Source: an uncultured Pseudomonadota bacterium
Lineage (GTDB): Bacteria; Bdellovibrionota_B; Oligoflexia; Oligoflexales; CAIYRB01
Direction: 5' to 3'
DNA length: 64,000 nt
Assembly (NCBI GenBank): GCA_903928445.1
Contig: CAIYRB010000145.1
Span: 62,001 to 126,000, forward strand
Part shown: one piece after another, positions 9,193 to 38,361 of the stretch
Position numbering within the stretch: the stretch's first letter is position 1
Layout of the letters: each line of letters opens with the position of its first letter
The notes under the pieces: model-generated
The model's input: the letters and a program-made list of their open reading frames with translations, nothing else
Databases searched by the model: none
Told to the model about the DNA's origin: nothing
Translations under genes and position numbers: made by a program

Positions 9193-10506
9193 TTAATTGG
9201 GCAAAGCCTCGTGGATCTTCAGTGCTAGCGCTTGGTTAAAGCCGTGGGACGACATATTGCCGATGACTCGCCCACGTAAGCCGTGGCCGATCAGGTATAA
9301 GTCTCCGAGCAAGTCGAGGATCTTGTGGCGGACAAACTCGTCGGGGAAGTTGAGCTTGGTATTGATGACTTTGCCATCGTGGATGATGATGTGGGAGTTT
9401 AGATAGCCAGAACCGACCATGCCCTGCTGCTGCGCGTGGTCGATGTTTTCAAAGGTATTAAACGAGCGGGCCGGCGCAATCTCGGTCTCAAAGGCTTGTT
9501 TGGTCGGTGTGAAGCGGTAACTTTGCTCCAGGATCGGCGCTGGGTAATCAACCCGCATGATGACCTCAAAGCCATCGAAGGGTTCGACATAGAGATGCTT
9601 TTCGCTGAGCGTCTCTGAGCCGATGACCATCTTTTTATGGATGACCACGTCGACGCGTTTGGCCGCCTGCTCCTCGACGCCGGCCGCGCTGATGATGCGG
9701 CAGAAGTCGGCGGCAGAGCCGTCGATATTGGGAATCTCTTCGTCAACCTTGATGGAAGCGTTGGTAATTCCCATCATATTGAGTGCTGCAAGTAGATGTT
9801 CGACGGTGCGGATGCGTCGACCAGATTTGGCTAGCACGGTTGAGTTTGCGGTGAAGGTTCGGCCTTGACCCAAACGGTCGTAGTTTTCGAGGGCGGTGAT
9901 ATGGGCGGGAATAGCGACTCCGTCGAGAGTGCGAAAGACGATGCCGCTGTTGATCGGTGCTGGACTAATGATCACGCCGGTAGGTCTGCCACTCAGTAGG
10001 CCGACGCCGTTTAGCACGGCATTGTTGCGCACAGTGCGCTGCGGCTCTTGCGACTGTATCAAGGAGGCGGCGCTGCCGCGGGCAAACGTCGTCGGTGCGG
10101 CGGGGGTGACACCGGCTAGGCCTTGGCTGCTGGCGTCAGTGACCGGAAGGTGTGCCGCGACTTTCTCCAGGAGGATGTCGAGATTGAGGGGCTTTTCCAG
10201 AAAGTCTGCGGCGCCCGCTTTCATGGCTTTGACGGCGATGTCGATACCGGCGTGGCCACTCATTAAGATCACGGCGAGCGACGGATATTGGGCCTTAAGT
10301 TGCCCCAGTGCTTCGACACCGTCGATACCCGGCAACCAAATATCAAGTAAAATCAAATCCGGCCGTTCGACCTGTAGTCCCTCCTGGAGGGCCTCGGCGC
10401 TGGAAAAGGTCAAAATCCGGTAGGATTCATCGGTCAGCACGGACTTGACCGCCTGGCAGATGGACTCTTGATCATCGACGACGAAGATGGTGTAGGGCAT
10501 CGGCAT
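9193..10506 (-). CDS. lpxC: Receiver domain fused to UDP-3-O-acyl-N-acetylglucosamine deacetylase (LpxC)
   Basis: Receiver: FVVDDQ, LILLDIWLPGIDG, MSGHA, FLEKPL. LpxC: LNGVGLLSG, RIRTVEHLLAAL, IPNIDGSAADF, RHKILDLLGDLYLIG, SSHGFNQAL. Confidence 0.92.
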   Translation of the reverse strand: MPMPYTIFVVDDQESICQAVKSVLTDESYRILTFSSAEALQEGLQVERPDLILLDIWLPGIDGVEALGQLKAQYPSLAVILMSGHAGIDIAVKAMKAGAADFLEKPLNLDILLEKVAAHLPVTDASSQGLAGVTPAAPTTFARGSAASLIQSQEPQRTVRNNAVLNGVGLLSGRPTGVIISPAPINSGIVFRTLDGVAIPAHITALENYDRLGQGRTFTANSTVLAKSGRRIRTVEHLLAALNMMGITNASIKVDEEIPNIDGSAADFCRIISAAGVEEQAAKRVDVVIHKKMVIGSETLSEKHLYVEPFDGFEVIMRVDYPAPILEQSYRFTPTKQAFETEIAPARSFNTFENIDHAQQQGMVGSGYLNSHIIIHDGKVINTKLNFPDEFVRHKILDLLGDLYLIGHGLRGRVIGNMSSHGFNQALALKIHEALPN

Positions 10507-35417: not shown

Positions 35418-35736
35418 TGAACATTTCCTTCAATCGTTTGGCCGCGACTTCAATTTCACGGTGCGGCGTCGTTTGCGTCTTCTTGACGAAGGCATGGAAG
35501 ACTAAGATGCCACGAGCCAGCTTGCATAAGTAAAAGACTCGGTAGGCTCCGGATGCATCCCTGACCCTAATTTCATCAACTCCGGACCCAACAGACGGCA
35601 TGGGACGGGCAAGCGGTAGGGTCAACGAGTGACCAGCTTGGAGATCTAGGATGGCCTTGCCAATTGCTTTACGCACATCCTCGGGGAATTTCCGGATGGA
35701 GTCTCTTGCTTTGGGGTGAAAGCGCGCAGGTTTCAT
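35404..35736 (-). CDS. higB: RelE/HigB-like (Gp49 family) toxin
   Basis: ARDSIRKFPEDVRKAIGKAILDLQAG...VDEIRVRDASGAYRVFYLCKLARGILVFHAFVKKTQTTPHREIEVA. Confidence 0.88.
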   Translation of the reverse strand: MKPARFHPKARDSIRKFPEDVRKAIGKAILDLQAGHSLTLPLARPMPSVGSGVDEIRVRDASGAYRVFYLCKLARGILVFHAFVKKTQTTPHREIEVAAKRLKEMFNEEG

Positions 35737-35744
35737 CGGCTGTG

Positions 35745-35766
35745 ATTGTCCCGGATCTGGGACAAT
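35745..35766. promoter_or_regulatory. Palindromic operator upstream of the TA operon
   Basis: ATTGTCCC GGATCT GGGACAAT, perfect 8-bp arms plus central GATC, 9 nt upstream of the toxin start codon. Confidence 0.7.
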
Positions 35767-35859
35767 TTGTCAAGACCGCTATTGCAAACTCAAAAAAACA
35801 GCCGAGTCCGATGCCATTGGTTCGAACTAGGCTTTGTCAATTATCTAATTTAATTAGTA

Positions 35860-35935
35860 TGGTCGAGCCGGCGAGATTCGAACTCGCGACCTCACGCACC
35901 CCAAGCGTGCGCGCTACCAACTGCGCTACGGCTCG
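35860..35935 (-). tRNA. tRNA-Pro (anticodon GGG), CCA encoded
   Basis: Reverse complement folds as CGAGCCG / GCGC-GCGC / CACGC-TTGGGGT-GCGTG / GCGAG-TTCGAAT-CTCGC / CGGCTCG-A-CCA. Confidence 0.93.
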
Positions 35936-36293
35936 ATTCAACCTAAAAATTCAGCCACAAAGTGACTAAAAACACAAGGGTCATGCTAGTTAACATGGCA
36001 TCTCATCTCGGTCAACAACAAGCCACCGCGCTCCCCTGATCGGTCGGAACGTGGACGCCTTGGCCTCCTCTGGTTATACTTATAGAGGCTCCGTCCGTGA
36101 GCCGCTTGTTTGGCCCTCTGCGCCGCCCTTTTATAGCTTCCTGGCACCCTACACCCGGCATTCTGCAGTCCCGTTCGCCTGCGCTCCGCGTTCCTGCTTC
36201 TGTTTCTGGCATGCCAATTCTAAGTAACCATAACCAACTCAGCCATCCTCATCCTGCATCTGAGCACCTAGTAACACCGGAGCCTCGTCCGCA

Positions 36294-37577
36294 GTGACCC
36301 CTCGCCTCAACAACCCGCCCAGCACGTCGCTGCGACCCAGAGGGTATCGGCGTGCCAATCAGCTTCTCGGTGCTGCCGTTCTCCTTTGCGCCTTCGCTGT
36401 TCCTTTGCCAGCCCGCGCCGCCATCTCCCCGTCCATTCTTGCCGCAGAAGACCGCCTCTTTCCGCGGCCCGACGTCGTCCGTAAACAGGTGCGCTTTTGG
36501 GAGAAGATCTTCTTCACCTATCCAGCCACCACCGTGATCGTCCACGAATCCACCGATCCAGACCGGATCATCGACGTCATCGATTACCGCGTCCCCTCAG
36601 GTCCCCATGCCACCAAATTGCCAGTGACTCGCAAAATGCGTGAAGCAGTTACAGTGCGCTACTTGCTCCGCTACAACAAGGCGGCTGATCGCTTTGCCAA
36701 GGAGCAGGCCGAGGCGGTTCGTTACGGACCGATTGAGCAGCGGCTGTTTGACGTCTATCACAGCGATGCGGTGCTACTCCAAAAGCTCTATACTGGTCAA
36801 ATCCGCTTGCGAGCGCAGACCGGGTTGGCCGACGATTTTCTTAGCGCCGCTAAATCGGCCCAAGCCTACCTGCCCTATATGGAGCAGATTTTTAGCCAGT
36901 ATGAGATCCCCAAACGCCTGACTCGCTTACCCTTTGTCGAATCGATGTTCAACCTGAAAGCACGGTCGAAAGTCGGTGCTTCAGGTATTTGGCAGTTTAT
37001 GCCTGGTACTGCGCGCAACTATATCTTTGTCAACAAGCTGGTCGATGAGCGAAATGCTCCAGAAAAAGCGACCCGGGCAGCGGCACAGTTTCTCCTCGGC
37101 AACTACCAGGAGCTTGGCAGCTGGCCATTGGCCATCACCGCCTATAATCATGGCAAAGAGGGTATGGCGCGAGCGTCACGCCAGCTCGCCACGCTGGACA
37201 TCGGCAGAATTATCGAAAACTACTCGGCGCCGTCGTTTGGCTTTGCTAGTCGCAACTTCTACGCTGAATTTCTCGCTGCTAGCAATGTCTATCAACGGTT
37301 GGTGCGCCTCCACCGCATCACCTCCGACGATGCGCCGGTGGCAACGGCCAACATCCTGCTGAAGACACCGATCTCGGTAGCTCAGCTTTTGGCACACACC
37401 CCACTCAAGAAACAACAGCTGCAAGACCTCAACCCATGCTTGCTACCGACAACATTGACCACCCATATCGATCGGCCGCTTCCAGCCTTTTATGAAATCA
37501 AGGTTCCTGTCAACCAGGCCGGGGCCATTCGCACCGCTTTGCAACTTCTCGATACTAACCGCTACGCGAAAAAATGA
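36294..37577 (+). CDS. Lytic murein transglycosylase (SLT/MltD-like)
   Basis: LPFVESMFNLKARSKVGASGIWQFMPGTARNY...AITAYNHGKEGMARA. Confidence 0.9.
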   Translation: MTPRLNNPPSTSLRPRGYRRANQLLGAAVLLCAFAVPLPARAAISPSILAAEDRLFPRPDVVRKQVRFWEKIFFTYPATTVIVHESTDPDRIIDVIDYRVPSGPHATKLPVTRKMREAVTVRYLLRYNKAADRFAKEQAEAVRYGPIEQRLFDVYHSDAVLLQKLYTGQIRLRAQTGLADDFLSAAKSAQAYLPYMEQIFSQYEIPKRLTRLPFVESMFNLKARSKVGASGIWQFMPGTARNYIFVNKLVDERNAPEKATRAAAQFLLGNYQELGSWPLAITAYNHGKEGMARASRQLATLDIGRIIENYSAPSFGFASRNFYAEFLAASNVYQRLVRLHRITSDDAPVATANILLKTPISVAQLLAHTPLKKQQLQDLNPCLLPTTLTTHIDRPLPAFYEIKVPVNQAGAIRTALQLLDTNRYAKK

Positions 37578-37584
37578 GGCATGT

Positions 37585-38361
37585 ATGGACGTCGCCGTAA
37601 ATCGCCAAAAGCTGAGCCCCAGGCCAGGATCCTTCATGCGATGCGTGCTTGCGGCCTTGCCCATGCTTATCGCTACATCGGCGCATGGCGCCGCACTCAA
37701 GGCGGTTGACACCGTACTTGATCGATTGGAAAAGCGCCTCTTAGACCAGGAGGCTGATGGCCTGACCTTTGGCGAACGGCAGAACGATCCCTCCTTTCTC
37801 CGCGTTCCTGAAGAGGCCGCACCAAAGAAATCCTATCGCTTCGGCAGTAGCAGGATCGAGGCAACACCCAAGCAAATCGAGCGGCTAAAGGACGTCGGTA
37901 AACTCGTTGGAGATCTGGAGTCCCAGGTTGACCAACTTGCCAGCAACGTGCAAAAGACCAAACAATCGGTCGTTGATGATGCGGCGATCGACAACTTCGT
38001 CACCCTAGCGGCCCAGCTCGGCGACACTGATGCCGCGGCGATTAAAAACCTCACCATCAAGCTTGATGGCTTTGAACTCTACGCCCTTTCCGATAGCTCG
38101 GGCCTGTGGCTTCCGAGCAAAAACCTGCCGATTTACGCCGGGCCGCTGCAGCCAGGGACGCACCGCGTGGACCTAGAAGTGCGCCTCGTCATGCGCCAAG
38201 TCCAAGACCTACCGCTCAATGGTGATATCTACCGTTTCATCAATAAGACCTTCGATATCACGGTCGCCGGCGCTCGCGGCAACGCGAGGTACATCATTGC
38301 CATTAAGGCCCCAGAGAAGCTTGGTGACACCGCCGATGCAACCTTAAAGGAAGCCATTTAA
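37585..38361 (+). CDS. Exported hypothetical protein of TPR/envelope cluster
   Basis: Signal peptide LAALPMLIATSAHGAA; stop/start overlap with the next gene. Confidence 0.6.
   Translation: MDVAVNRQKLSPRPGSFMRCVLAALPMLIATSAHGAALKAVDTVLDRLEKRLLDQEADGLTFGERQNDPSFLRVPEEAAPKKSYRFGSSRIEATPKQIERLKDVGKLVGDLESQVDQLASNVQKTKQSVVDDAAIDNFVTLAAQLGDTDAAAIKNLTIKLDGFELYALSDSSGLWLPSKNLPIYAGPLQPGTHRVDLEVRLVMRQVQDLPLNGDIYRFINKTFDITVAGARGNARYIIAIKAPEKLGDTADATLKEAI

Follow-up and report, generated by a model that had tools for sequence, protein, structure and literature searches.

Receiver and LpxC domains encoded by a single gene

A single open reading frame (ORF) of 437 aa, at 9193-10506 on the minus strand of the window (the whole 64,000-nucleotide stretch of DNA that was analyzed, from an uncultured bacterium of the Oligoflexia), encodes a response-regulator receiver and a complete LpxC. 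A first-pass annotation had proposed such an in-frame fusion from the letters of the DNA alone, and this was borne out by the ORF itself, by the Pfam and TIGR00325 matches, and by the motif residues. The Pfam scan found Response_reg (PF00072, E 1.1e-28) and LpxC (PF03331, E 1.9e-70) in the one protein and no further domain, AAA and HTH domains included. The LpxC match spans profile positions 1-266 of 268 and scores 238 bits (cut-off, 27), and the protein also passes the TIGR00325 lpxC equivalog model, with 202 bits against a cut-off of 187. The features of the gene are as follows.

9193..10506, minus strand: receiver-LpxC fusion gene, 437 aa (ORF and domain matches; kept in 9 other Oligoflexia genomes)
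10159..10488, minus strand: receiver domain, residues 7-116, NtrC/NtrX/FixJ-like (PF00072, E 1.1e-28)
10342..10344, minus strand: codon for Asp55, the phospho-acceptor (conserved as Asp in 10/10 fusions from Oligoflexia and 87/88 from Desulfobacterota)
10042..10158, minus strand: linker, residues 117-155, fast-evolving (length and dN comparison)
9214..10041, minus strand: LpxC domain, residues 156-431 (PF03331, E 1.9e-70; TIGR00325 above cut-off)
9793..9807, minus strand: TVEHL, with the general base Glu236 and zinc ligand His237 (invariant in fused and canonical rows, bar the deleted G001 copy)
9301..9327, minus strand: HKILDLLGD, with zinc ligands His394 and Asp398, plus Lys395 and Asp402 (invariant in all fused rows)
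9244..9246, minus strand: His421 (invariant bar one gapped row)

The acidic pair, phospho-Asp, Ser/Thr and Lys of a response-regulator receiver are all present (D11/D12, D55, S83 and K105, with F102), as are the zinc ligands and catalytic Glu/His of LpxC (E236/H237 in TVEHL, H394/K395/D398/D402, and H421, which corresponds to the general-acid residue His265 of the E. coli enzyme). Against receiver profiles the protein scored 96 bits for FixJ, 92 for NtrX and 81 for NtrC. Comparison with the PDB assigned the second half to LpxC structures and the first half to NtrX/NtrC-type receivers, among them 4d6x and 5m7n, which are Brucella NtrX. The protein is not an NtrX and is at most an NtrX descendant. 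Both domains have the base composition of the window. A structure model (AlphaFold, eight close sequences) was reasonable for the receiver and poor for the LpxC half (overall pTM 0.39), so that contacts between the domains cannot be judged.

No conserved operon was seen around the gene, the neighborhoods differing between subclades. The adjoining gene (window:6990-8969) encodes a large protein with a bacterial Ig-like domain and, among the loci compared, was otherwise found only in the closest congener.

The fused gene as the only LpxC found in the genus

All six genomes from the window's genus (g1) show the same architecture, as do four from a second Oligoflexia genus (g21, family f7), and the window protein is 69-78% identical over its whole length to the eight intact copies among them. 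A stand-alone second lpxC was looked for in the window's own genome (G000; 4.85 Mb, 94.7% complete) and in the five congeners (each 91-96% complete), and no LpxC other than the fused one was found in any of the six. LpxA and LpxB were found in all of them; in the window's own genome, lpxA and lpxB sit in a conserved gene cluster, whose other lipid A genes were named by inference from size and order. A canonical LpxC is additionally present in three of the four g21 genomes with the fusion, and it is the only form in G006, which belongs to the window's family and lies outside its genus. The copy of one congener (G001, L056:3117-4253, the same as L032) has an in-frame 177-nt deletion that includes TVEHL; either the sole LpxC of this genome is dead or the deletion stems from an error of assembly. 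Separately, several f7 genomes encode two LpxB-like proteins, one divergent and encoded beside lpxA, the other typical and encoded in a different cluster, as exemplified by G040 (L117:7380-8507 and L118:7614-8846).

A divergent clade shared with Desulfobacterota

A profile built from the fusions was searched against a sample of 396 genomes from the phylum to which a Syntrophobacterales MAG (L040) belongs, inferred to be Desulfobacterota, and matched in 89 of them. At the same cut-off, E 1e-57, which is strict and had no positive control inside the set, no fusion was detected in 399 Pseudomonadota genomes. The 89 Desulfobacterota genes comprise 71 with the receiver-linker-LpxC order, 17 with an NtrX-like receiver-AAA-LpxC order, and 1 without a receiver at the start (G771), which is the sole receiver-less gene in the fused clade and still has its AAA part. 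The architecture predicted by the first-pass annotation is thus real but no rarity: a genome search recovered it in 9 other Oligoflexia genomes and in about 88 genes from the 396 Desulfobacterota genomes. When 67 of the fusion-bearing Desulfobacterota genomes were re-searched with the LpxC family, no non-fused LpxC was found in 64; the other three (G919, G875 and G714) encode a canonical LpxC besides the fusion. One small genome (G1061) carries two paralogous receiver-LpxC genes (L177:4754-6184 and L178:5072-6490).

All fused LpxC domains, the window's included, form one clade on one side of a branch with support 100/99; the clade is divergent and on a long branch, and no stand-alone LpxC was seen inside it. 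Within it the Oligoflexia fusions group with that of G919 (support 100/100), to which G875 is nearly identical. This subclade, shared by Oligoflexia with two Desulfobacterota genomes, suggests horizontal transfer; the straightforward reading is that the gene moved between the two phyla, in a direction that is unresolved. A Myxococcota origin of the fused LpxC was also considered and rejected (best score 186 bits, compared with about 600 for its own clade).

Conservation was high in both domains. Of 98 receivers, 97 have the phospho-acceptor Asp (10/10 Oligoflexia, 87/88 Desulfobacterota) and all 98 have the Lys. For the three pairs in which dS could be measured, receiver omega was 0.03-0.09, indicating purifying selection. 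The base, zinc and acid residues of LpxC are invariant in all fused rows, apart from the deleted G001 copy and one gap, and the Thr preceding a conserved Phe of LpxC is replaced by Ser in Oligoflexia. The linker ranges from 26 to 73 residues across the fusions (median 39), and its dN is far above that of either domain. Judged from these residues, the LpxC half is predicted to be catalytically intact; its deacetylase activity is inferred from its status as sole copy alongside lpxA/lpxB.

NtrY beside the fusions and decay of NtrX

That no histidine kinase lies next to the fusion, as the first-pass annotation had stated, was upheld, no kinase match being found among the ORFs of the window; a partner can nonetheless be inferred from other genomes, namely NtrY. 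At 30 of the 89 Desulfobacterota loci, a gene for an NtrY-family histidine kinase immediately precedes the fusion in the same orientation; the spacing is mostly -4 to +122 nt, and the kinase belongs to this one family in all 30 (Pfam: HAMP, PAS, HisKA, HATPase and a weak NtrY_N match). The other 59 loci have no adjacent kinase, and four Desulfobacterota genomes with such orphan fusions were found to encode NtrY without an adjacent NtrX. In G919 the gene order canonical lpxC, NtrY-family kinase, lpxK was found (L253:4203-8680). Two of the kinase-less receiver-LpxC genes have a radical-SAM gene directly upstream (L170:3685-4728 and L179:2252-3280).

The three-domain genes (L173:3735-5972 and 16 similar ones) have an NtrX-like AAA domain between the receiver and LpxC, and in the two that were scanned the receiver-AAA part scored best as NtrX (307 vs 267 and 242 vs 211 bits). 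GAFTGA is lost in 17/17 of these proteins, so that they are unlikely to activate sigma-54 transcription; Walker B is mostly altered and Walker A is kept.

A full-length NtrY-family kinase was found in every Oligoflexia genome tested (among them all of g1 and 4/4 of g21). In the window's own genome it is encoded on another contig (C139, positions 35643-37886) and does not neighbor the fusion, a separation that holds genus-wide, and in g1 it keeps the phospho-His and glycine-rich ATP-binding (G-box) motifs. In G006, G012, G014, G023, G040 and G043, the gene after that of NtrY encodes a full NtrX-like regulator, and genes for a DUF4388 protein and a SpoU methylase come next. In all six g1 genomes, NtrX is missing from this operon while its neighbors are unchanged, and no NtrX ortholog was found elsewhere: the best scores were 424-446 bits in five genomes, with nothing above the cut-off in the sixth, compared with 604-866 bits in relatives that possess NtrX. 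Remnants persist between NtrY and DUF4388 in two g21 genomes, as the C-terminal third of NtrX in G037 (L281:4664-5002) and as a 32-residue trace in G028 (L280:4264-4521), while G040 and G043 retain both NtrX and a canonical LpxC alongside the fusion. NtrX is absent or broken in 8/10 Oligoflexia genomes with the fusion vs 1/14 without it (G009, which has no clear NtrX; Fisher p 0.0005, uncorrected for kinship). Since the losses amount to about three events, this p value overstates their independence. The window receiver is only 39-44% identical to Oligoflexia NtrX.

Interpretation and alternatives

We consider it probable that the fusion is a functional LpxC and that phosphorylation of its receiver, most likely by NtrY, governs how active or abundant the enzyme is or where it is placed. 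The direct two-component control of LPS synthesis suggested in the first-pass annotation is well supported in this sense, though by inference: the phospho-acceptor is kept clade-wide, the enzyme is intact and usually the sole LpxC, an NtrY-family kinase is found upstream of a third of the Desulfobacterota fusions, and NtrX is missing beside NtrY in the window's genus. Neither phosphorylation nor an effect on activity has been shown, and phosphotransfer from NtrY and the resulting change in LpxC remain inferred, in the absence of phosphotransfer or activity data. In the proposed scheme, the receiver would be phosphorylated by NtrY, a membrane histidine kinase with HAMP and PAS domains whose gene lies elsewhere in the genome, and the phosphorylated receiver would set LpxC output via catalysis, stability or localization. 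The sign of the effect is unresolved; we lean slightly towards restraint of LpxC by NtrY, because NtrYX lowers lpxC expression in alphaproteobacteria. The family probably originated when an NtrX response regulator became fused in front of LpxC, the AAA and DNA-binding parts then having been lost in many members to leave receiver-linker-LpxC. If NtrY does phosphorylate the fusion, as inferred, a transcriptional two-component system would have been turned into direct control of an enzyme.

The receiver might instead be phosphorylated by another kinase or by acetyl phosphate, with NtrY serving another partner and the loss of NtrX being unrelated. The window does indeed encode no kinase, which leaves its fusion gene an orphan, 59/89 Desulfobacterota loci lack an adjacent kinase, and the receiver of the window's gene has limited identity to Oligoflexia NtrX and scores slightly higher as FixJ than as NtrX; we nevertheless regard this alternative as rather unlikely, given the single kinase family upstream in all 30 loci and the three NtrX losses or decays, which fall in fusion-bearing lineages. 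A sub-case of two-component control, which we hold to be possible though on the unlikely side, is that the receiver, in the manner of RssB, is chiefly a handle through which phosphorylation directs proteolysis or localization, without changing catalysis. LpxC levels are under proteolytic control in E. coli, little C-terminal tail follows the LpxC domain here, so that a new handle could replace that tail, and the linker is long and variable; direct evidence is absent, however, and most of this support is common to the preferred reading.

Fusions can be neutral hitch-hikers, and the receiver could be a passive relic or phosphate sink with no effect on LpxC, but this appears very unlikely in view of phospho-acceptor residues kept in 97/98 proteins across very diverged lineages, the low receiver omega, and the existence of only one receiver-less gene in the clade, itself with the AAA part retained. 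Hardly any weight is given to the proposal that the LpxC half has lost its deacetylase activity on the lipid A precursor and has become a regulator or taken a new substrate. The long branch of this divergent clade, the Ser before the conserved Phe in Oligoflexia and the in-frame loss of the zinc/base motif in G001 would fit it; the metal, base and acid residues are all retained, however, and the protein is the sole LpxC found where lpxA and lpxB are kept, as well as in 64/67 of the Desulfobacterota genomes checked. That two separate genes were joined by a frameshift, a misassembly or faulty annotation, conceivable for a MAG sequence, was rejected and can be regarded as excluded, because many genomes, with about 98 independent genes between them, have the same fusion.

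Significance and relation to known systems

LpxC is the control point of LPS synthesis and an antibiotic target. How it is adjusted outside enterobacteria is largely open, and here a large bacterial group carries it, by inference, as a two-component output, often as the only copy found. The decaying NtrX genes would show a signaling pathway shifting from gene regulation to enzyme regulation. Should such enzyme control be real, which we hold to be somewhat more likely than not, LPS would be balanced by a route distinct from that of FtsH/LapB/YejM. Direct control of LpxC is readily testable with one purified protein, one kinase and one assay. Neither a receiver-LpxC fusion nor LpxC as a receiver output turned up in the open-access literature that was searched, which did not extend to subscription papers or preprints, and the same holds for the usual sole-copy status, the NtrY partner and the decaying NtrX; domain databases may well list the combination of receiver and LpxC domains.

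NtrYX affects lpxC in the alphaproteobacteria R. sphaeroides and Caulobacter (PMC7240162, PMC12444477), with about ninefold lpxC transcript and twofold LPS reported for a deletion (PMC7240162; summarized in PMC12444477). The 2025 review (PMC12444477) covers transcriptional NtrYX effects in two alphaproteobacteria, and a word search of its text found no response-regulator fusion. In Desulfovibrio vulgaris, lpxC is targeted by DVU2934, an NtrC-type regulator (PMC3333781). An NtrY-controlled fusion fits both the published effect of NtrYX on lpxC transcription and LPS amount (PMC7240162, PMC12444477) and the targeting of lpxC in D. vulgaris (PMC3333781).

The window protein resembles LpxC (PF03331/TIGR00325) in its complete catalytic domain, with all zinc, base and acid residues, and differs in its added N-terminal receiver and its separate long-branched clade. 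The likeness to NtrYX lies in the NtrY-family kinase that adjoins many fusions and in the three-domain N-terminal part that scores best as NtrX, but known NtrX is a DNA-binding transcription regulator, whereas the output of the fusion is the enzyme itself. With DVU2934 it would share two-component control aimed at lpxC in the same broad group (PMC3333781), although DVU2934 is a separate transcription factor that binds upstream of a stand-alone lpxC. LpxC-FabZ also places LpxC within a two-domain protein, its partner being a C-terminal metabolic enzyme; membership of that family (PRK13188) was rejected, with a score of 175 against a cut-off of 465 and no FabZ match in the window protein. Receiver-enzyme fusions are an already known kind, and like the enzymatic-output response regulators (CheB, diguanylate cyclases), the protein described here joins a receiver to an enzyme; it differs from them in having as its output a core biosynthetic enzyme of which the cell usually has no other copy.
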